From: Candidatus Fermentibacterota bacterium
Lineage (GTDB): Bacteria > JAFGKV01
Length of the DNA: 22,758 nt
Reading direction: 5' to 3'
Assembly: GCA_030620115.1 (NCBI GenBank)
Contig: JAUXFG010000058.1
Coordinates: 1-22,758, forward strand
Every line of letters begins with the position of its first letter. Within the stretch, counting starts at the first letter, position 1. This document shows positions 1 through 22,667 of this stretch, piece after piece. Position numbers and translations under genes: made by a program. The notes beneath the pieces were generated by a model. The model was not told the origin of the DNA and ran no database searches. It saw nothing but the letters and a program-made list of their open reading frames with translations.

Positions 1-2119
1 ATCCGAGAACAGCACCTCAGCAGGCAATTCCGGGGTTTCTCTGCCCAGGAGAGTCATCAGCATAATCCGCCAAGCAATGACAAGGTTAATGGCAATAGCT
101 CGCCGCAGGCGTTCAGCGGTTTCGTGTGCGAGATCCCCAATGCGACAACCGGACTTCAGCACTCGATGCCAATCTTCGATACGCCAGCGCAGGTGGTACC
201 AACGCAGGCATTGCTTGGCATCTTCGGCCGAGGTTGACATCGATCGTGGTCAACAGAAACCACTCCACGGCCTCGGTCTTCGCCGGCGAGTTCTCCTCCA
301 GCGCATGAACCACCCATATATCAATGGGATCCTTGTCGGCGTGATAGCGTGCTGGACGGAGTTTGATCCGCATAGAGCGTACCGCCATATCCGCCACGCG
401 ACTGGGCCTCTTGGATCGAGCCTTTTGTTTGCTTCTCTTCGGCCGGGCGCTCTGCCGCGGGATGTGAACCCGAACCCGGCTCTGAACGGACTCCTGTCGA
501 ACGGCTGCAAACAGTTTGAAGGGTTCTTCGGCTATGTTACGGTTATACTCGGCGCGCACCAGTAGATCGACGCGAGGGTTTTGGCGTTCCTCGTCGAACA
601 GCTCGAAGAAGTCCGCTTCCCGGTCGCACACGTCGATCAGTCGTGTATGGGGCATTTGGGAAGCCAGTTCAACCAGATCGCGGTGATGTTCTATCCAGAC
701 AAAGGTCTTCTTCTCCTCGATCGGAATGGCGTACGTGGGTCGGTCTTCCTCCGGCGATTTACCTTTGGGGGCTATGCACTGAGCACGCAGCACCCCCAAG
801 GGAAGTCCGTTCGGAGCTACCGCCAACGTAGAGTGCAAATGCAATCCGCGGCTCTTTGCACCGGTCTGGTTAGTTCCCATCTCACCCAGACCTTCACACT
901 GATCCAGGTTGGTGTAGGTCAGATCGCTGCCGTCCTGCACGCACAACACGGTCTTTTGTCCCATCATTCGCCGCACTGTGCGCTTCCGGTGGGGCGCCAG
1001 GATGTTGGCCATGTTGATCGCCGACTCCTCCGGCTGGTCAATCATGCGGTAATACGCCTTTACCGCCGGCCAATCTCCCTTGGCCACCCCGCTGAAGGCG
1101 CGGCCCGGCATTTCTGCTTTCGCTGCTGCCACGTTCACAAGCCTCTTGCTCAGCCGTGCATCACCCAGTGGTGCGCCGCCGAACTCGTTTTCCGCCCAAT
1201 GGTCTGCCTCCAAACCGGCCGCCGGGTCCAACGCACCCAGACCGGCATCCGGCGATAAAGCCATGCGCCTTCGGAAGTCGTGCTCCATGGGGTATACATA
1301 GATCGCTTTGACGCTCAAAGCAAACTGTTTGTAACGATCCTGTCTGCCGCGACCCTTTGTCTTCCCCACCGCTATCCAGTTCGCCGCCCGATAGCATGTC
1401 CCCGAATAGCAACTAGTATCCACAAAACTCTCTACCAGCCAGGGCCTGTAGCCGTACTGCCGTTCAAAATCATCGGGCAAAGCCGCCATGCTCATGCTCA
1501 GAACCTTCGAGGCCAGGTTTTGACATTGCACGCTCGGGCGAATCAGAAAACGGCTCATCCCCACCACATAATGCAGATACCCCCGACGCTGGTCAGCATC
1601 CCAGCCGATCCACTCGTCTCGGTCACCCAATTGCAGGGCCGCCGCGGCAAATCCAAATCCGCCAAGCCAACCGTGTGGTGAACCGATGAGGTAGCGCAAC
1701 TGCCGTCCCACCAGAGGACCCGCCCCTTGTGGATGTTCGTTGATCATCAGCTCATTCCATATCCGCATCTGCTCGGGCATGGTCGCCAATACCAGCTCCA
1801 GTCCGCGGACCTCCCCGGCTTGAGAGGGAACCTCTATGGGCAATGCAACCGGCTCCGATAATCGCCGGGGAGAACGACGCCCGGGGCTTGTACGAGCCGC
1901 CGGCAAAACAAAATGTCCGGCTGCTTCCAGTTCTCGCAACGCCTTCAGGCATCCGCCTCGTTGCTCCTGGCCACGGGCGTCATAGAATCCAAACTGTTCG
2001 CATACAAGTGCGGCCAGTTCGCTTCTGTGACGAATTTCGTTGCTCTCAAGCAGCCCGCAAACATATTCTATGTTCGTGGGCTCCGACAGAGTCCGTTTGA
2101 TTTGCTTTTGTGTATTCAT
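1..2119 (-). pseudogene. DruA (DUF4338)-IS4/Tn5-type DDE transposase fusion, frameshifted and cut by the window edge
   Basis: Residue numbers count from an alternative GTG at 2134; the ATG at 2119 is preferred, though neither has a clear ribosome site. Residues about 20-285 match DUF4338, the DruA domain of Druantia defence (GYRPWLVESFVDT, GTCYRAANW, GRGRQDR, KAIYVYPM). Residues about 312-375 match the Tn5-type DNA-binding domain (HWAENEFGGAPLGDARLSKR). The DDE core follows, with Asp401 (VQDGSDL) and Asp504 (VCDREADFFELF). The frame breaks near 232. One base over, the minus strand encodes LRWYHLRWRIEDWHRVLKSG, which holds the complete IS4 Y-x2-R-x3-E-x6-K motif with the catalytic Glu, and this frame stays open to base 1. 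The frame before the break ends at a stop near 113. One extra base or two lost bases explains it, so this is a decayed element or a sequencing error. The combination of DruA and transposase looks like one polypeptide in origin. Confidence 0.85.
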
Positions 2120-2181
2120 GCCCCAAGAATACACGACACGAGTCTGATTGTTCAGTCCTCATTTACGGGTAAAGGGCAGGC

Positions 2182-5301: not shown

Positions 5302-6252
5302 ATGAGCCGACGTGCGGCCATGAAATACCTTGTGGTTATCGCTCCCCGGCCCGGGTTCGTCCACGAATGGGTTGATGCGTTGCCTTTTCGGGGGGTGGAT
5401 GTTGCCGCTGCTGAACAGATCCATTCCCCTGCGGTTCTGGAGGTCTCGAGCCCCGGCATCTACCATGATGTTGATGGGCTTGGTTCCAACGATAGGGGTC
5501 CTCTGCTCGTAGTGCGAAGTGCGGACTGCCTGCCTTTGCTTCTGCGTTCCTTTTCGAGCCGAGAGCGGGTGCTCGTTCATGCGGGTCGCAAAGGGATTGC
5601 CTCCGGTGTGGTGGAGCGTGCGGTGAATTTCCTTGTTTCTCGGGGAGCTCCGGCATTCGAAATACAGGTTTGGCTTGGGCCTCACCTCAAATCGTGTTGC
5701 TATAGATTCCCTGGCTCGCATCGACTCGTTGGGGAGATCGAGCGAGGCGCACCGCTGGGTGTGAGCCATGTTGGCGAAGAGCTCGTGCTTGACCTCGAGA
5801 GAGAGGTGCGAGGCCGTCTTGTACGTGCGGGTCTTTCGCCGCAACGGATCTTCTCTGACCCGAGGTGTACCTCATGTGGGCCGGGACGGCTCCCTTCACA
5901 TCGGAGAGAAGGCGCTCTGCGTTCACGTGTAATTCTGACGATTTCAGACGGGAGATTCCTGGAGGGTAGTACCATGGCAGTTGATCCCCAGCTATTGAAG
6001 ATCTTGGCCTGTCCGGAAACAAAAGAGCCAGTGTCTTTGGCCGCCGATGAGATCATCGAAAAACTCAATAATCTCATTGAATCAAAGAAGGTAATAAATC
6101 GTGGCGGTGAGCCCGTGACGGATCGAATGGATGCGGGATTGATCCGGGAAGACGGCAAATATCTCTATCCCATCCGGGACGATATCCCCATCATGCTCAT
6201 TGAGGAAGCCATCGAGCTCCCACCGCTGAACGAGTTCCTGAACCTCCCATAG
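5302..6252 (+). CDS. pgeF: PgeF/YfiH-type protein fused in frame to a Trm112-like domain
   Basis: Residues 1 to about 215 are a YfiH/PgeF (formerly 'polyphenol oxidase/laccase') domain, a family now tied to peptidoglycan-precursor editing and to purine nucleoside cleavage. The metal ligands are present: QIHS (His41), ADCLPLL (Cys76), VHAGRKG (His93). LGPHLKSCCYR and CTSCGPGRLPSHRREG also fit the family. The N-terminus is short, with about 40 residues before the first His ligand, lacking the usual 'NLG...GDD' stretch. No stop follows; the frame runs through DGRFLEGST into Met225 and a Trm112/YcaR-like domain (LLKILACPETKEPV ... DGKYLYPIRDDIPIMLIEEAI). An internal AGGAGG-like site precedes Met225, so the second domain is probably also made alone as a 92-aa protein. 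Its single CP pair replaces the four-Cys zinc site of classic members. The gene lies 4 bases after korB and lacks its own ribosome site at either ATG (5302 or 5320). Confidence 0.85.
   Translation: MSRRAAMKYLVVIAPRPGFVHEWVDALPFRGVDVAAAEQIHSPAVLEVSSPGIYHDVDGLGSNDRGPLLVVRSADCLPLLLRSFSSRERVLVHAGRKGIASGVVERAVNFLVSRGAPAFEIQVWLGPHLKSCCYRFPGSHRLVGEIERGAPLGVSHVGEELVLDLEREVRGRLVRAGLSPQRIFSDPRCTSCGPGRLPSHRREGALRSRVILTISDGRFLEGSTMAVDPQLLKILACPETKEPVSLAADEIIEKLNNLIESKKVINRGGEPVTDRMDAGLIREDGKYLYPIRDDIPIMLIEEAIELPPLNEFLNLP
5961..5976 (+). promoter_or_regulatory. Internal ribosome binding site and ATG for the Trm112-like domain
   Basis: GGAGGG at 5961-5966 lies 7-8 bases before the ATG at 5974, at the exact start of the Trm112-like domain and inside the upstream reading frame. 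This is as good as any ribosome site in the window and much better than the one for the fused gene itself. It argues that MAVDPQLLKILACP is made as a separate 92-residue protein, with or without the fusion product. Confidence 0.75.
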
Positions 6253-14349: not shown

Positions 14350-14704
14350 CCCTGGGGCCTCAGTCATTGCAAAAAGGGTAACGAAAGTGTAAGGCACTTC
14401 CCGCCCTGTCCTGAAATATGCCGGAATTTGAACCTCTGATTCGTGGGATCTGAAGGCAACCCTGCCTCCGGCCCGGCGGGAACAGTGAACCCTGAACCCG
14501 TGAACGGCTACGGGAAGAAACAGGCATTGATGGCGCTATCGTCACTAATAGCCATTGGCAGCTAACAGCTCAAGACAGAGTCTGAGAAAAATCTGAGCGG
14601 CAGATTGTATACTCTGAGTCGACTGAGAGAACGTGTTCCAAGACAATTCTTCCACGTCCGGCTTCTCAGTCCCTGATGTGGAAGACGTATCCAGGAGGTG
14701 TTGT

Positions 14705-16537
14705 ATGAGTTCATCTCAGGTTCGGCCAGGCTCCGCCATATTGGCGAGCCTCTTCGCGTTCGTGCTCTTCGGGAGCGCAATAGCGGAGATCCCTGAGCTC
14801 ATCAGCTACCAGGGGAAAGTGACCGACAGTGGCGGCACACCGGTAGCTGATGGAACCTACGCCATGCGCTTTCGAATCTATGATGCGGTCACCGGGGGCG
14901 CCATGGAGTGGGACAGCTTGAATAGATCGATTGCGGTTTCAGATGGTGTGTTCAATGTGCTTCTAGGCGAAAGCCCACAGCCGACGTTGAATCTACCGTT
15001 CGATGAGGACTACTGGCTGCTGGTGAGGTTCGAGGGGGTGGATCAGTCCCCTCGCCAGCGCCTGACCTCGGCAGGCTACGCCTACATGGCCAGTGGTCTG
15101 GTGCCGGGAACCCTGATCGAGGGATCGGTGGGCTCCTCTACCAGTGGTGCCGTCAAGGCCGTGAACACATCCAGCTCGGGTACCCGTTACGGGGGATACT
15201 TCGAGAGTGAGTCCCCGTCCGGCAAGGGCGTCTACGCCGAAGCGCCCCACACCGGCGTCTACGGCAGGGCCACCGCCACGACCGGCGCCGCATATGGCGG
15301 ATCCTTTGCCAGCAACTCACAGGACGGCAAGGGAATCCACGCCCAAGCGCCCCACACCGGCGTCTACGGCAAGGCCACGGCCACGATCGGCGCCGCATAT
15401 GGCGGATCCTTTGCCAGCAACTCACAGGACGGCAAGGGAATCCACGCCGAAGCTCCCCACACCGGTGTCTATGGCAAGGCCACCGCCACGACGGGCGTCG
15501 TGTACGGGGGATACTTCGAATCCCCGTCCAACCAGGCCTCGGGCATCCGGGCTTTTGCCACTTCCACTACCGGCGATCATGCGACATACGGAGTCTATGG
15601 CAGGAGTTCCGCTTCATGCGACGGGTCGATAGGTGTCTTTGGCTGGTCTTCCTATAACAGCAACTTGGGCGGGACTTACGGTGTGTACGGCAGGAGCGAT
15701 GGCCGGAACGCCACTTCCGCGGAGCCCTACCCCGTCGGCGTCTACGGTCTGGCAAGCAACACCTCGGGCAATGGCGTGGGTGGCTACTTCCAATCCAATG
15801 CGGTCAACGGTGTCGGCGTTGAGGGGCAAGGCAAGAACGTAGGCGTCAGGGGCTTGGCGACCGCAACCTTCGGGACCAACTACGGGCTCAGCGCCTCAGC
15901 GACGTCCGGCTGGGCGGGCTGGTTCGCGGGCAACGTCAATGTCACCGGAACCCTCACCAAGGGCAGCGGCTCCTTCCTGATCGACCATCCGCTCGACCCC
16001 GAGAACAAGCTGCTGAGGCACAACTTCGTCGAATCGCCGGAAAACCTCCTCATTTACAGAGGCACGGTGAAGCTTGGTTCTGACGGTATGGCTTTGGTCG
16101 AGATGCCGGAGTACTTCGAGGCGTTGACGAAGGAGAAGGAGGCGTCGGTACATCTGACGCCGGAGGGCAAGCCGTTCCTCACCGGGTATCGGTGGGGGGC
16201 TGATCACACCGCGTTCACCGCCTACGGCGATCCCAATCGGGAGGTCGCGTGGATGGTCATGGCCGATCGGGACGACCCGGTGATGCACCAACTGGCACGG
16301 CCGGTGGAAGAGGACAAGGGTCCGGACAACAATGTGTGCGACCGGGGCGAGCTGCTCTACCCGACTGCGTACGGCTACCCAAAAACCGCGGGCAGGGACT
16401 ACAAGATCTTCACCCCCGCCAATGTTCATCCTGTGGAAGAGCCGGAGGACTGGCGCACGACGGCGGCAGGGGCGAGCATCGAGCCCGATCGCACGAGCGG
16501 GGACGTGGACGTGATGGAGGTGGGCGATGCGCGATGA
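14705..16537 (+). CDS. Secreted repetitive YGVYG-rich surface protein
   Basis: A signal peptide (SAILASLFAFVLFGSAIA) precedes a domain, residues about 28-145, of the type LISYQGKVTDSGG ... FNVLLG ... RQRLTSAGYAYMA. I know this type from many secreted proteins of FCB-type and environmental bacteria; its function is undefined. Residues about 150-430 repeat the motif G-x-G-[VI]-x-A-x-x-x-T-G-V-Y-G followed by YGG-x-F, suggesting stacked beta-strands in a solenoid or trimeric fibre. The C-terminal part (FLIDHPLDPENKLLRHNFVESPEN, then VEMPEYFEAL and VAWMVMADRDDP) resembles a conserved terminal domain I associate with such fibre-like proteins. Start: AGGAGG lies 6 bases before ATG 14705; an earlier ATG at 14633 has no such site and would spoil the signal peptide. 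Overlaps the next gene by 11 bases. Confidence 0.8.
   Translation: MSSSQVRPGSAILASLFAFVLFGSAIAEIPELISYQGKVTDSGGTPVADGTYAMRFRIYDAVTGGAMEWDSLNRSIAVSDGVFNVLLGESPQPTLNLPFDEDYWLLVRFEGVDQSPRQRLTSAGYAYMASGLVPGTLIEGSVGSSTSGAVKAVNTSSSGTRYGGYFESESPSGKGVYAEAPHTGVYGRATATTGAAYGGSFASNSQDGKGIHAQAPHTGVYGKATATIGAAYGGSFASNSQDGKGIHAEAPHTGVYGKATATTGVVYGGYFESPSNQASGIRAFATSTTGDHATYGVYGRSSASCDGSIGVFGWSSYNSNLGGTYGVYGRSDGRNATSAEPYPVGVYGLASNTSGNGVGGYFQSNAVNGVGVEGQGKNVGVRGLATATFGTNYGLSASATSGWAGWFAGNVNVTGTLTKGSGSFLIDHPLDPENKLLRHNFVESPENLLIYRGTVKLGSDGMALVEMPEYFEALTKEKEASVHLTPEGKPFLTGYRWGADHTAFTAYGDPNREVAWMVMADRDDPVMHQLARPVEEDKGPDNNVCDRGELLYPTAYGYPKTAGRDYKIFTPANVHPVEEPEDWRTTAAGASIEPDRTSGDVDVMEVGDAR
15221..15535 (+). repeat. 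Three 105-bp in-frame tandem repeats
   Basis: Units start at 15221, 15326 and 15431 and each encodes 35 residues beginning GKG[VI]xAxAPHTGVYG. Units 1 and 2 are nearly identical in DNA and their last about 35 bases match exactly. Unit 3 has drifted in its second half. Degenerate copies of the TGVYG and YGG-x-F steps continue for about 400 bases. Confidence 0.9.
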
Positions 16538-17141
16538 AGCGGCGTGTGAACACGGCACGAGGATGCTGAAGCTGTCGGCACTGCTCGTGGTAAGTGTTCT
16601 CTTGCTGTACCCCACGATCGCCTTTGCACAATATGTGGTCGGCCCGTCAGTCATCGCCGGTGGAGGCGCTCGGCTGACGGGCGGCGGCTACGTCATCACC
16701 GGCACGACAGGACAGAGCGCCCCAATTGGCGCTTCAGGTGGGGGCAGCTACATGACCCATCATGGGTTCTGGCATGCGGTGACTGGAGGCGGTGGAGCCT
16801 TGAGTCCCATGGTGTTGGACATTGAGCTGATCAGCGCAACCACGGCGCGGATCTCGTGGCCTGTGGTGAGTGACGCCACTCACTACGACCTCTACCGGAG
16901 TCCTACACCATATTTCCACGCCTCAGGAGCGCCGTGGCAGATAGTAACCCATCCTACGGCACACCGTGATTTCACGGGAGGCATTGGAAACTCGAGCACG
17001 AACTACTTCTTCCTTGGGAAGGCCCGGAATGCCACTCAGGAATCGGTTGAGTCGAACATCGTCGGAGAGTTTGACTATGGGGCAGACATCCCGCTCGTGG
17101 GGTTCGATCTGTCAATGAGAGGTTCGGAAGCAGAACGGTAG
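16527..17141 (+). CDS. Small secreted protein with glycine-rich strand motif and FN3-like domain
   Basis: The signal peptide is LKLSALLVVSVLLLYPTIAFA. The mature N-terminus has the motif SVIAGGGARLTGGGYVITGT followed by GQSAPIGASGGGSYMTHHGFW, a pattern that recurs in secreted proteins of environmental bacteria. An FN3-like domain follows (DIELISATTARISWPVVSDA ... YDLYRSPTPYF ... YFFLGKARNATQESVESN). The end GEFDYGADIP parallels the metalloprotease C-terminus at 7845, then adds LVGFDLSMRGSEAER. GGAGGT lies 5 bases before ATG 16527; ATG 16563, at the signal peptide itself, is an alternative. The overlap with the upstream gene suggests co-translation, and both products may act together at the surface. 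Function unknown. Confidence 0.75.
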   Translation: MRDEAACEHGTRMLKLSALLVVSVLLLYPTIAFAQYVVGPSVIAGGGARLTGGGYVITGTTGQSAPIGASGGGSYMTHHGFWHAVTGGGGALSPMVLDIELISATTARISWPVVSDATHYDLYRSPTPYFHASGAPWQIVTHPTAHRDFTGGIGNSSTNYFFLGKARNATQESVESNIVGEFDYGADIPLVGFDLSMRGSEAER

Positions 17142-17753: not shown

Positions 17754-17789
17754 TATGGATAGAATATGCTTTCAACGAGGAGGGAGCAG

Positions 17790-19373
17790 ATGAAAACGCC
17801 TCTTGCCATGTGCGCGGCGATATTCATTGCAGTCTTGGCTTACGGATGTTACGGTGAGCTTCTACACAGTGATGATCTGCAGTACCTGGGTGCTTTCCGC
17901 CTGCCGGATGAAGGGGAATATGGATGGAACTATGCAGGATTTGCCGCGACGTTTTATCCTGGGGGCGATCCCACCGGCCCTATCGACGGCTATCCGGGCT
18001 CCATCTTCGCTCTCGGTCACGATCACCTCCAAGAGGTTTCCGAGATAACCATACCTGTCCCCATCATTTCTCCCTCCCAGAATGTCAACGACCTTAACAC
18101 GTCCCAAACTCTGCAGGGCTTTCATGACATCACAGGAGGCATGTTCGGGGATCTCGAGCAACCCACGGCCGGTCTGGCTTACCTGTCGGCCCAGGGCGCC
18201 CAGACGACCGAGAAGCTTCACTTCTGTTGGGGACAGATGCAGAATTCCCAGGACTTCGAGCCGTCCCATGGCTGGTGCGAAATGGATCTCTCAAATCCTC
18301 AACCGGCTGGTCCGTGGTATTTCGATGGCTACACGAACTATACAACATGTGACTACATGTTTGAGATCCCGGAAGCCTGGGCGTCTCAGAATACACCTGG
18401 TCAGCTATTGGTGACGGGACGGTTTCGTATCGGACAGTGGGGAGGGCTAGGGCCGACTCTCTTCGCCTATGGACCCTGGAATGACGGAAATCCACCGGAC
18501 CCGAATTCAACTTTGGAGACGCTCACGCCGCTTCTTCTGTACGGCATACAGATGCCCGGTGCACCGGAGATAGCCACTGATGATTCGATGAAGATGAACC
18601 ATTTCAAAACGGCAGATGACTGGTCAGGCGGGGCGTGGCTCACCAAGGGCAACCGATCGGCAGTGGTTCTGTTGGGGACAAAGGCCCTTGGCAACTCCTG
18701 GTATGGCTTCGCAGACGGTACAGTATGGCCGGAGAAGCCGCCCTATCCCGACGTGCCGCCCTGGCCATATGACGATCGGGGTTACTGGTCGGACAGCACG
18801 AAGACTCAAGTCTTGTTCTTTGATCCCAGCGAATTGGCGGCGGTAGCCGGAGGAGACATTCCGACGTGGGCGCCGCAGCCCTACGATTCTCTTGATATCG
18901 ATGAATATCTATTTGATCCGGTTTTCGATCCCTATCGAGCCAAGTACCATTTTGTTGGGGCGACGTGTTTCGATGGAGCGAACGGGTTCATATACATTTT
19001 TGAACGAAGGGCCGATGAGGAGAAATGCTTGGTTCACGTCTGGAGCATAACGACCGGTTCAGGCACAAACGAGCCTGAGACCGGAGTAACCCCCTTTAAG
19101 CTGCATCAGAACTACCCCAACCCCTTTCGAGCAAGAACCGCGATCTGTTATCAGATTGCGCAACCGATGCATGTGCGGCTCACGATTCTCAACGCCGCTG
19201 ACCAGGTCGTAAAGGAGTTATCAGCTGGGTATCAGAGGCCTGGGGCACACCGTGTGATTTGGGATGGAACCAACCAGCGTGGGATCGCGTTGGCGTCTGG
19301 AGTCTATTTCTGCCGCATTCATGATAGGCGTAACAAGAGTCATGCGGTGAAGCCGATGCTCCTACTTCGATGA
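17790..19373 (+). CDS. Unknown secreted protein with T9SS sorting domain
   Basis: The signal peptide is PLAMCAAIFIAVLAYG. The body (about 25-440) is rich in aromatic residues, with stretches such as LQYLGAFRLPDEGEYGWNYA, GSIFALGHDHLQEVSEITIP and LQGFHDITGGMFGDLEQPTA. They suggest repeated beta-sheet blades, possibly a propeller, but I cannot name the family or an active site. The last about 85 residues are a type A sorting domain: LHQNYPNPFRARTAICYQIA, VRLTILNAADQVVKELSAGY, VIWDGTNQRG and SGVYFCRIHD, ending LLLR. GAGGAGGGAG lies just before ATG 17790; an upstream in-frame ATG at 17766 is less well placed. It stands 36 bases after the orphan sorting domain. Cys at residue 20-21 is not in a good lipobox (AYGC), so lipidation is unlikely. 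Confidence 0.75.
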   Translation: MKTPLAMCAAIFIAVLAYGCYGELLHSDDLQYLGAFRLPDEGEYGWNYAGFAATFYPGGDPTGPIDGYPGSIFALGHDHLQEVSEITIPVPIISPSQNVNDLNTSQTLQGFHDITGGMFGDLEQPTAGLAYLSAQGAQTTEKLHFCWGQMQNSQDFEPSHGWCEMDLSNPQPAGPWYFDGYTNYTTCDYMFEIPEAWASQNTPGQLLVTGRFRIGQWGGLGPTLFAYGPWNDGNPPDPNSTLETLTPLLLYGIQMPGAPEIATDDSMKMNHFKTADDWSGGAWLTKGNRSAVVLLGTKALGNSWYGFADGTVWPEKPPYPDVPPWPYDDRGYWSDSTKTQVLFFDPSELAAVAGGDIPTWAPQPYDSLDIDEYLFDPVFDPYRAKYHFVGATCFDGANGFIYIFERRADEEKCLVHVWSITTGSGTNEPETGVTPFKLHQNYPNPFRARTAICYQIAQPMHVRLTILNAADQVVKELSAGYQRPGAHRVIWDGTNQRGIALASGVYFCRIHDRRNKSHAVKPMLLLR

Positions 19374-19454: not shown

Positions 19455-22400
19455 CTATTCGGTCCTAAGAAGATCCTCGGCCACCTGTTCAAGAGTGAGC
19501 CCTCGCCCCTCGGCCAGAATGGCGTCGCGATCACCTGGAAAATCATGTTCAAATAAGTCTGCAAGAGCACGACCAGCTTCCATACTATTCCTATGCTCGA
19601 TTTCCTTCTGCGACGATACGAATGCATAGATCAGTGCTGCTTTGTACTTGTCTCCTCGAGCTTCGAGGAGTCTTCCCGACTCCAAGATGCTGCAAAGAGC
19701 AACAGGAGTGGCCTGGATTCCTACTGCGATCTGGAGAGCTTCCTTGAGTATCACTGCGGACTCTTCCACCTCACCCATCGCCAGCGTAGCACCGCCCAAT
19801 CCATTGAGCGATATCGCCAGGCCTCGCTGAATACCCATCTTGCGAAAACTCTTTATACTCTCAACAAAACGGCGTTTTGCTTCCTCATAGTCGTGTAAAT
19901 CTACAGCTACTTCACCAAGAGCATTCATACAATAGGCGGCTTCCCTCTTCTCACCGATTCCCATCGATAGCGCGACACTATCCTCCAATAGCTTTGTTGC
20001 GTTCTCATATTCACCCAATTGTTGGTAAACATATCCTAGAAGACACAGGCTACGAGCAATGCCGCTATCGCTTCCCACGCCTTTGGCAAACTCAAGGCGT
20101 TCTTGATAGAGCTCCTTGGCCATCTGGTAGTCCCCAAGTACGTATGCTGCATTGCCGACACTGCCCAAAAGAATAGCGATCAATGCCATGTCGCCGATAG
20201 CCCTCGCAACGGAAAGACCCTCTTCGTAATGCTCTTTGGCCTTGAGATAATCACCCTGGGAGTAGACCACATTGCCCAGGCCGTTGAGACACTTCACGAT
20301 GACGCGCAGATACTTGTGTACACGGCTGATCGATAGGCTTTGCTGGAACAGCATATTCGCATCATCGTACTCGCCGAGAAATGCGGCCGTTCCCCCCATG
20401 GTGGCCAGCACATTCGCCTCGGTCCACCGGTCAGCAATTTCCCTGCTCAAGAGCAGACACTGCTCACAGAGCCGCCGTGACTCGTCGTAGTTCCCCTCGC
20501 GTCTCGTGACCTCGGCCAACCCCCACAATGTGAAAGCCATGTCGGTGTGTTTCTTGTTAGTCTCGAAAACAGCCAGGCTCTGCTTCAGCGACTCTCGAGC
20601 ATCGTCGAGTCGACCGAGAAAGAAGTCAAATAGTCCCAGTCGTGCGCGCAATCTCTCCACCGTGATGTCTGTTTCCTTGCTGCTGTATTCATGTGACGGA
20701 TTAGCTCGGATCTTCGTCAACGCATCGCGAAGCATTCTACCGCCTTCTTCCAGCCAACTACGCACCTGATAGAACGAGCTTAGGGTAACAATGGATCTGT
20801 CGATTTTCTTGAGATCCCCGTGATCTATCGCCCACTTCCAGCCTTTGTGAATATTCCCAATCTCCTCCTCTATTTGGTCCAATGCGGACCTCTGGTCTTC
20901 TCCCCGCAACGAGTCCTCTCTCTCGTCCAGGAATGCGGCAAAGCATTGCGCATGAAGATCCTGCAACCGATCCTCGTCTTGGGTCGACTCGGCCAGCTTC
21001 TCCTCAAGATACTGCTCCAGTAGTCTGTGAATCTGATAGCGGCCTAAGGCATCTCTCTGTACTAAGGACTTGTCCACCAATCTCGAAAGGATCGACAAAG
21101 ATGCTCCTGCTACCTTTTCCGCAGCCTTTCTCCCAAAACCACCGCGAAAGACAGAGAGCTTCATGAGTGCTGTTTTTTCCTCTTCTTCCAGGAGTCGCCA
21201 CGAAAGATCGAATGTCGTGCGGATATTCCGATGGTGTTCGGGAACGTCTCGTTCCGTCGTGGCCAAAAAGCCGATGTCTCGTTCCATTTCCTCTGCTATC
21301 TCTCTGCATGAAAGAACCCGCACCCACCCCGAAGCAAGCTCTATCGCCAGGGGCACGCCACACAGCAACCGACATATCCGGACCACAAAAGGCGATTCTT
21401 TCGGAGTGAGCTTGAAATCCGAAGAGACTCTCCTGGCGTTTGCATGGAACAGTTGGACTGATTCACTGACGTGGAGACTTCGATCATCAGACTCATCGGG
21501 CACAGAGAGACCGGAAATCTCGATCACCCGTTCAATGCACAGATGCAAACGCTCTCTGGAAGTGAGCACGATCTTCACGCCGGCGGCGTTCTCAAGAATC
21601 TCCGTGACTATATCAGCGCCTTCCGCCAGCTGGTCGAAATCATCGAGAATCAGTAGCAGTTCTTTCGATCTCAGGTATCTAAGGAGCTGCAACCTTGGCT
21701 CAGGTTTATGGGTATACGCAAATCCCAATGCATTGCCAACTGCCAGAACGATGAACTCAGGGGATCTGACGGGATTCAACGGAACGAAGTAGACTCCGTC
21801 AGGGAATGATCCTATCACCTCTTGAGCGACCTGAAACGCCAATCGGCTCTTACCTATCCCCCCAGGTCCCACGAGTGTGAGCAATCTGTATTGGGGGTTA
21901 GCAAGCATTGTGGCGATACCGGCCATCTCCTCCTCGCGTCCTATAAAGGGGTTGGTCGTAAATGGCAGGCTGGATATAGTTGCCGCAGTCACTGATCCCT
22001 GGCTCCGGTTCTTCTGTGATTCGGATGGAGCCTCCACCGATTCCTCCATGGAATCCAGTACGTCCTCAAGTTGCGCCAGTACTGCCTCCAATTCTTGCAT
22101 CCGCAGATCGCGATCAGTATCCAACATCCGATAGATGAGAGTTGCGAGTTTCTCTGGGGTTTCCGGGCGAAGCGATAGGAGATCAGGAGGCAGAGCTTCG
22201 ATCTCTCCATCCGCCCCGATGTGATCCTGCTGAAACGGAGGGGCGCCCGCGATCATCTCGAAAAGAAGCACACCCAAACACCACACATGTGAGACCGCAT
22301 CCGGCGGGCTGCCGCGCATCACTTCAGGGCTCATATAGGGGAATACGTTCTTCCGGGATTCCGGCGATTGCTTCCCGGGCTCTGCTGCTGAAGGAGTAGA

Positions 22401-22667
22401 GGCAAAGTAAGGCTCCAGAGTCTCCTGCTCTAGAAAGATGTTCTCCGGCTGGAGTTCTCTGTAGAAAAGTTCCTCGTTCTGCGACCGGATCAGCTCACGA
22501 GCTACTGCCGCGCCGATCCTTACGCCTTCTCCTATGTGAAGTCGAGACTCCGCATTCAACAAATCGCGCAGAGTCATCTGGTGTGTTTTGTCTATCGGGT
22601 AACGGTCTCGTTCAGATTCCGGCATAGTGGCGCACTTGGCCCTGTTTGTGTTTTGGGCTGACACCAT
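19455..22667 (-). CDS. Pseudokinase lobe-STAND (NB-ARC-like) NTPase-TPR signalling protein
   Basis: Residues about 31-205 align with the C-lobe of a Ser/Thr kinase, but the N-lobe (glycine loop and ATP-binding Lys) is absent. The catalytic loop is YRELQPENIF (69-78), with Glu in place of the HRD Asp. No DFG is visible. YMSPEVMRG (111-119), VWCLGVLLFEM (128-138) and the final helix (DRDLRMQELEAVL) are kept. The STAND NTPase covers about 240-560: Walker A GPGGIGKS (267-274), Walker B LLLILDDFD, sensor VLTSRERL, CGVPLAIELASG and a winged-helix-like LSVFRGGFG. From about 670 to 1050 are roughly ten TPRs. It is soluble, with no signal peptide. The layout resembles PknK/AfsR-type regulators, in which TPRs sense a signal and ATP-driven oligomerisation follows; the dead kinase part is probably a protein-binding module. 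The stop lies 81 bases from the convergent gene at 19373. A role in transcription control or in phage defence is possible; nothing nearby decides. Confidence 0.9.
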   Translation of the reverse strand: MVSAQNTNRAKCATMPESERDRYPIDKTHQMTLRDLLNAESRLHIGEGVRIGAAVARELIRSQNEELFYRELQPENIFLEQETLEPYFASTPSAAEPGKQSPESRKNVFPYMSPEVMRGSPPDAVSHVWCLGVLLFEMIAGAPPFQQDHIGADGEIEALPPDLLSLRPETPEKLATLIYRMLDTDRDLRMQELEAVLAQLEDVLDSMEESVEAPSESQKNRSQGSVTAATISSLPFTTNPFIGREEEMAGIATMLANPQYRLLTLVGPGGIGKSRLAFQVAQEVIGSFPDGVYFVPLNPVRSPEFIVLAVGNALGFAYTHKPEPRLQLLRYLRSKELLLILDDFDQLAEGADIVTEILENAAGVKIVLTSRERLHLCIERVIEISGLSVPDESDDRSLHVSESVQLFHANARRVSSDFKLTPKESPFVVRICRLLCGVPLAIELASGWVRVLSCREIAEEMERDIGFLATTERDVPEHHRNIRTTFDLSWRLLEEEEKTALMKLSVFRGGFGRKAAEKVAGASLSILSRLVDKSLVQRDALGRYQIHRLLEQYLEEKLAESTQDEDRLQDLHAQCFAAFLDEREDSLRGEDQRSALDQIEEEIGNIHKGWKWAIDHGDLKKIDRSIVTLSSFYQVRSWLEEGGRMLRDALTKIRANPSHEYSSKETDITVERLRARLGLFDFFLGRLDDARESLKQSLAVFETNKKHTDMAFTLWGLAEVTRREGNYDESRRLCEQCLLLSREIADRWTEANVLATMGGTAAFLGEYDDANMLFQQSLSISRVHKYLRVIVKCLNGLGNVVYSQGDYLKAKEHYEEGLSVARAIGDMALIAILLGSVGNAAYVLGDYQMAKELYQERLEFAKGVGSDSGIARSLCLLGYVYQQLGEYENATKLLEDSVALSMGIGEKREAAYCMNALGEVAVDLHDYEEAKRRFVESIKSFRKMGIQRGLAISLNGLGGATLAMGEVEESAVILKEALQIAVGIQATPVALCSILESGRLLEARGDKYKAALIYAFVSSQKEIEHRNSMEAGRALADLFEHDFPGDRDAILAEGRGLTLEQVAEDLLRTE

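Follow-up and report, generated by a model that had tools for sequence, protein, structure and literature searches.

What can a protein do that begins halfway through a kinase fold and continues into a STAND ATPase? The question is raised by a gene near one end of the window, a stretch of 22,758 nucleotides that constitutes the entire contig C29 of the Candidatus Fermentibacterota genome G000. The same bacterial family is represented by this genome and two others (G001 and G002); the remaining sampled genomes are related at domain level only.

Gene and domain architecture

The open reading frame lies on the minus strand, with its ATG at 22667 and its stop at 19455, and encodes 1070 aa. Upstream of the ATG the contig extends for just 91 bases, and an in-frame stop is located 6 codons 5' of the start codon (open frame of 1076 versus 1070 codons). 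The domain order given by Pfam is a partial Pkinase, NB-ARC at residues 246–474 and TPRs from about residue 710 on. The features of the gene are as follows.

19455–22667, minus strand: whole gene, C-lobe-only pseudokinase/NB-ARC STAND/TPR protein, 1070 aa
22674–22702, minus strand: promoter-like TTGTGA-N17-TATACT immediately 5' of the ATG, a consensus match only
22041–22583, minus strand: kinase C-lobe without N-lobe, residues 29–209 (Pfam, AlphaFold2, Z about 22 to PknB)
22440–22463, minus strand: degenerate catalytic loop YRELQPEN, residues 69–76, canonical HRDLKPEN (alignment with full-length kinases)
20982–21956, minus strand: NB-ARC/NOD with winged helix, residues 238–562, containing TSRERL, GVPLAIEL and the MHD-like IHRLL (Pfam; nearest solved STAND AfsR)
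21846–21869, minus strand: intact Walker A GPGGIGKS, residues 267–274 (alignments)
19659–20681, minus strand: TPR superhelix, residues 663–1003, likely sensor (Pfam; AlphaFold2 pLDDT over 90)

The promoter-like site weighs little, because such sites are not more numerous than in shuffles. Elsewhere in the window, one open reading frame (5302–6252, plus strand) joins a YfiH/laccase-type domain (Cu-oxidase_4) to a Trm112p-like domain, and in another (113–2134, minus strand) a DruA domain is followed by a transposase DNA-binding domain, with no PADLOC match.

Kinase C-lobe

The Pkinase match (E 6e-11, above cut-off) covers only model positions 84 to 253 of 263. When the protein is aligned with full-length kinases of the three family genomes, the first aligned residues are MTLRDLL against GSLRDLL, just past the hinge, and the PF00069 N-lobe (glycine loop, VAIK Lys and alpha-C Glu) is absent by both Pfam and alignment. 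The initial annotation had the protein starting directly in kinase C-lobe sequence with the HRD Asp replaced and DFG missing, and this description was borne out. In the catalytic loop D is changed to E and K to Q, so that HRD reads YRE; the residues aligned with DFG are YFA; and DxWSxG has become SHVWCLG, with the DxW Asp replaced by His. The SPE motif, the W-x-LG helix (VWCLGVLLFEM) and the final helix, which had been described as kept, are all retained in the alignment.

Structure prediction of the N-terminal part, named as a check by the initial annotation, did return a kinase C-lobe: residues 29–209 were folded as such by AlphaFold2 with pLDDT mostly >90, from an input alignment that contained active kinases. 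Structure comparison (Foldseek, VIA-align) gave Z ≥ 8 for 1000 of 1000 aligned chains, the best value being 22.6, to PknB. The query sequence by itself also matches kinase C-lobes in the PDB (E 4e-10). Judged by the catalytic parts that have been lost from its sequence, the N-terminal kinase part is clearly a catalytically dead pseudokinase.

NB-ARC ATPase and probable TPR sensor

The P-loop NTPase motifs had been reported as intact, and they are. NB-ARC is matched above cut-off (E 3e-12), and all of the STAND motifs are present: GPGGIGKS (Walker A), LLILDD (Walker B), TSRERL (TSR), GVPLAIEL (GxP) and IHRLL (MHD-like). About nine TPRs follow the NOD on its C-terminal side, the position of a repeat-type sensor. 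In the full-length AlphaFold2 model the TPR part has pLDDT over 90 and the NB-ARC is poorly predicted. Related STANDs of many phyla carry signalling or DNA-binding parts at the N-terminus, which were named by eye from sequence and include cyclase, BTAD, LuxR-type HTH, PP2C-like and kinase domains. The most economical reading of the window protein is a putative docking or oligomer-control module, the half-kinase, on a working STAND machine, in which the C-lobe would be the output or adaptor surface. The window genome encodes more large ATPase/TPR proteins on contigs C5, C49 and C179 (L005, L006 and L008; open frames of about 1070–1200 codons), and the examined parts of C5 and C49 open with a stretch similar to the last part of a GGDEF domain.

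Inheritance of the N-lobe loss

Homologues with the same loss were searched for, as had been proposed, and three related proteins in the two other genomes (G001:C164, G002:C85 and G001:C119/C277) were found to begin their kinase part at the hinge. The catalytic residues are gone from the alignment in all four members in which the region is visible, and Walker A and the NB-ARC core are retained across the N-lobe-less clade. A paralogue in the window genome, C163, is cut by a contig end at SPE. In G001:C186 and G002:C277 the kinase domain is complete, VAIK, HRD and DFG included. In a tree of the NB-ARC domains, the five proteins whose C-lobe is visible form one group (97/95), which also holds the N-terminally cut C222 and C355, and the active kinase-STANDs, with both lobes, form a separate adjacent group (100/100).

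By these comparisons the N-lobe loss is inherited, and the half-kinase form is a subfamily, not an oddity confined to the window genome. Most simply, the ancestor would have been a full kinase-STAND from which one lineage lost the N-lobe and catalysis once; a single loss is the simplest reading and no proof, because the tree was rooted at its midpoint. An intact N-lobe upstream in close relatives was also looked for: tblastn with three N-lobes found none on the contigs of the N-lobe-less clade, and the positive control was found at E 5e-54. A local truncation or frameshift is ruled out by this result and by the common starting point of the three relatives. Nor does chance account for the truncation, because three relatives repeat it. 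Outside the family, seven kinase-NB-ARC fusions were found over the full query (386 genomes in all), every one with an intact N-lobe, VAIK, HRD and DFG, and no N-lobe-less form was found among them. A further locus, L108, matches the query only over the kinase end and NB-ARC.

The main rival explanation is decay, in which the C-lobe is a leftover of N-lobe loss and the NB-ARC-TPR part needs no N-terminal module to work. The shortened activation segment and the free variation of the catalytic residues in C164 and C85 are in keeping with it, as is the identity between these two proteins, 47% in the C-lobe against 63% in NB-ARC. The C-lobe is therefore less conserved than NB-ARC in this pair, and part of it may be drifting. 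Against decay, the fold, SPE and the IYRMLDxDxDLRxQ helix have been kept across two genera although the C-lobes are only about 40% identical. Between the window protein and C163 the C-lobe is even the best conserved part (82%, versus 55% for NB-ARC and 30% for the TPRs), but gene conversion can explain this. Exactly at the C163 contig end, within the C-lobe, 97 bases (L002 3489–3585) are identical to window positions 22244–22340, and identity falls from 100% at the contig break to mostly 40–77% past the C-lobe. This pattern points to a 5' end that was recently exchanged or duplicated, with sensors that have diverged; a collapsed assembly repeat would look alike. No upstream extension of the window contig or of C163 was obtained through contig-end overlaps. 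Taking both sides together, we regard decay as unlikely.

A RAYT-derived N-terminus in one relative

In G001:C119 a single open reading frame codes for a RAYT-like domain (REP_Tyr_transpos, E 3e-7; Y1_Tnp just over cut-off), Bac_DnaA_C and the kinase C-lobe, in that order. The contig ends inside the C-lobe, and an exact 87-base overlap leads to contig C277 of G001, where NB-ARC and TPRs continue (L044 2025–3263 and L023 9942–12785 for C119 and C277). The continuation into NB-ARC/TPR depends solely on this overlap of two contigs. An assembly artefact was rejected as the origin of the RAYT fusion itself, with RAYT, DnaA_C, SPE and WSLG all in one open reading frame within one contig. The RAYT HuH motif and catalytic Tyr are lost; the fusion has QVH and E---LP where RAYTs of the same genomes have HIH/HYH and Y---NP, and because of these replacements it should not cut DNA. 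A subclass of RAYTs with DnaA_C is already known (PMC6006769), and no report of a RAYT fused to a STAND was found in the literature.

Fibre cassette beside the STAND genes

Conserved gene neighbours had been suggested as a further line of inquiry, and the search for them returned a secreted fibre cassette, which in the window comprises the following genes.

14633–16537, plus strand: secreted fibre-like protein of 634 aa with YGV-type repeats after a Bdello_MAT_N-like N-terminal domain (below NCBIfam cut-off)
16527–17141, plus strand: secreted fibre-partner, 204 aa, recurring beside kinase-STAND genes (locus comparison)
17766–19373, plus strand: secreted protein, 535 aa, whose tail is FlgD-like (T9SS-like); arranged tail-to-tail with the STAND gene and also present at G002:C85 (Pfam, locus comparison)

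The domain after the signal peptide is matched by NF053851 in five fibre proteins (window, C164, C85, C119 and C355; E 4e-4 to 1e-6) with scores of 20–29 bits against a curated cut-off of 60, and the proteins are thus similar to MAT but not assigned as members. One fibre protein also matches a phage tail family (E 9e-13).

A fibre gene is within view at six of the nine kinase-type STAND loci of the family, against 0.26 expected (Poisson P about 3e-7, an estimate that assumes an even spread of fibre genes and independent loci and was made after the linkage had been noticed). At one of them, C186, the fibre gene is seen by its C-terminal part only, and the 204-aa partner lies between it and the STAND gene. 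C163 is a seventh linked locus, its left flank being the 3' end of the 204-aa partner gene (62 aa at 97%). The cassette therefore adjoins 7/9 loci; the other two (C222 and C277 of G002) are cut by contig ends on one side. No cassette was found at three cyclase- or BTAD-type STAND loci of the same family, and none at seven kinase-STAND loci from other lineages. A STAND gene is missing beside most of the fibre genes, of which G001 alone has 31. The fibre N-terminal domain occurs in 5 (window genome), 31 (G001) and 18 copies in the three genomes; set against the 5 of the window genome, the 31 matches of G001 represent a greatly expanded adhesive fibre repertoire.

The STAND gene and the cassette may be head-to-head, tail-to-tail or on the same strand, and because the orientation differs between loci the linkage concerns the cassette, not a single promoter arrangement. 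This bears on an alternative in which the STAND would be a DNA-acting regulator that assembles on a promoter region common with the fibre gene, binding DNA through the dead RAYT and DnaA_C-like HTH in one member and through a C-lobe-docked partner in the others. The head-to-head arrangement with a fibre gene at three loci, RAYT and DnaA_C in frame with the C-lobe in G001:C119, and AfsR, a STAND activator, as the nearest solved STAND all speak for it. Yet the genes of the window, of C163 and of C186 are arranged tail-to-tail; no DNA-binding domain can be recognised in the window protein, C164 or C85; and the search for REP-like hairpins in the roughly 440 bases that separate the RAYT fusion from its fibre gene at C119 gave weak palindromes only, none convincing. 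We consider direct action on DNA quite improbable.

STAND proteins with repeat sensors serve bacterial immunity, and the initial annotation had hinted at an antiviral role. As an NLR-like anti-phage or conflict sensor, the protein would recognise a foreign protein with its TPRs, and the oligomer would set off a toxic or immune response. The TPR parts have diverged strongly between paralogues (30%), as those of sensors in conflict would. The hint nevertheless found no support: the window protein is without an effector enzyme, no defence genes were recognised alongside, and it is secreted fibre genes that recur as neighbours. The PADLOC matches of the window protein are to generic kinase (PD-T4-6, mad6) and TPR models, with partner genes scanned unsystematically. 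An immune function is accordingly very unlikely.

Proposed mechanism

The reading that we prefer, with a probability of about 0.45, is a STAND switch with a non-catalytic docking half-kinase that controls the adjacent adhesive fibre cassette. The TPR superhelix would sense a ligand, upon which NB-ARC, closed in its ADP state, would open in the ATP state and oligomerise; this closed/open switching is inferred for the window protein by analogy and carried over from MalT. The half-kinase, its C-lobe retained as a binding module after N-lobe loss, would serve as a non-catalytic docking surface gathered by the oligomer. The switch would in turn control the production or display of the neighbouring fibres: the STAND gene adjoins secreted fibre genes and therefore probably helps to control them, as far as genomic linkage can indicate.

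A wider generalization, which we regard as doubtful, would be a switch family dedicated to adhesive-fibre cassettes, with output modules made from dead enzymes (the C-lobe kinase and, ahead of it in one member, the dead RAYT) that dock protein or DNA and are clustered by NB-ARC.

Comparison with known systems

PknK, a kinase/STAND ATPase/TPR protein, is a probable parallel to the window protein by domain order. The order of kinase, NB-ARC-type ATPase and TPRs is common to the PknK type, to the active forms of the family (G001:C186 and G002:C277) and to the window protein, whose NB-ARC is 43% identical to that of C186. PknK-type proteins and these active forms have a complete N-terminal kinase, whereas the window protein has neither the N-lobe nor any of the catalytic residues. 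In sequence, the closest solved STAND is AfsR (SARP-NB-ARC-TPR; PDB entries 8k60 and 8jke), which matches residues 228–565 (E 2e-13); its N-terminus is a DNA-binding SARP/BTAD instead of a kinase C-lobe. MalT, a STAND with an arm and a TPR-like sensor, is closed in its ADP form and opens and oligomerises in its ATP form, and is the model for the proposed switch (PMC4381067); unlike the window protein, it binds DNA through a C-terminal domain and contains no kinase part.

To our knowledge, described pseudokinases generally retain both lobes. The bacterial families ActPs1–3, GLW, CP1, DYD and DLHK have catalytic motif loss in common with the window protein but are set apart from it by description, their review containing no STAND, NB-ARC, TPR or N-lobe-less family (PMC12599244). 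A literature search for C-lobe-only pseudokinases found nothing, which does not prove absence. In the window protein and its relatives the N-lobe was dropped and the C-lobe was kept through genus divergence, a natural test of what a C-lobe alone is capable of.

The MAT fibres of Bdellovibrio have a conserved domain after the signal peptide, followed by a trimeric fibre whose tips are exchangeable (PMC10769870). The neighbouring fibre proteins resemble them in having an N-terminal domain after the signal peptide and then a repetitive fibre region, and differ in their below-cut-off scores. If the fibre linkage reflects control, the half-kinase STAND would be a candidate regulator of such MAT-like fibres in bacteria other than Bdellovibrio, and would exemplify inactivated enzymes turned into a STAND output module.
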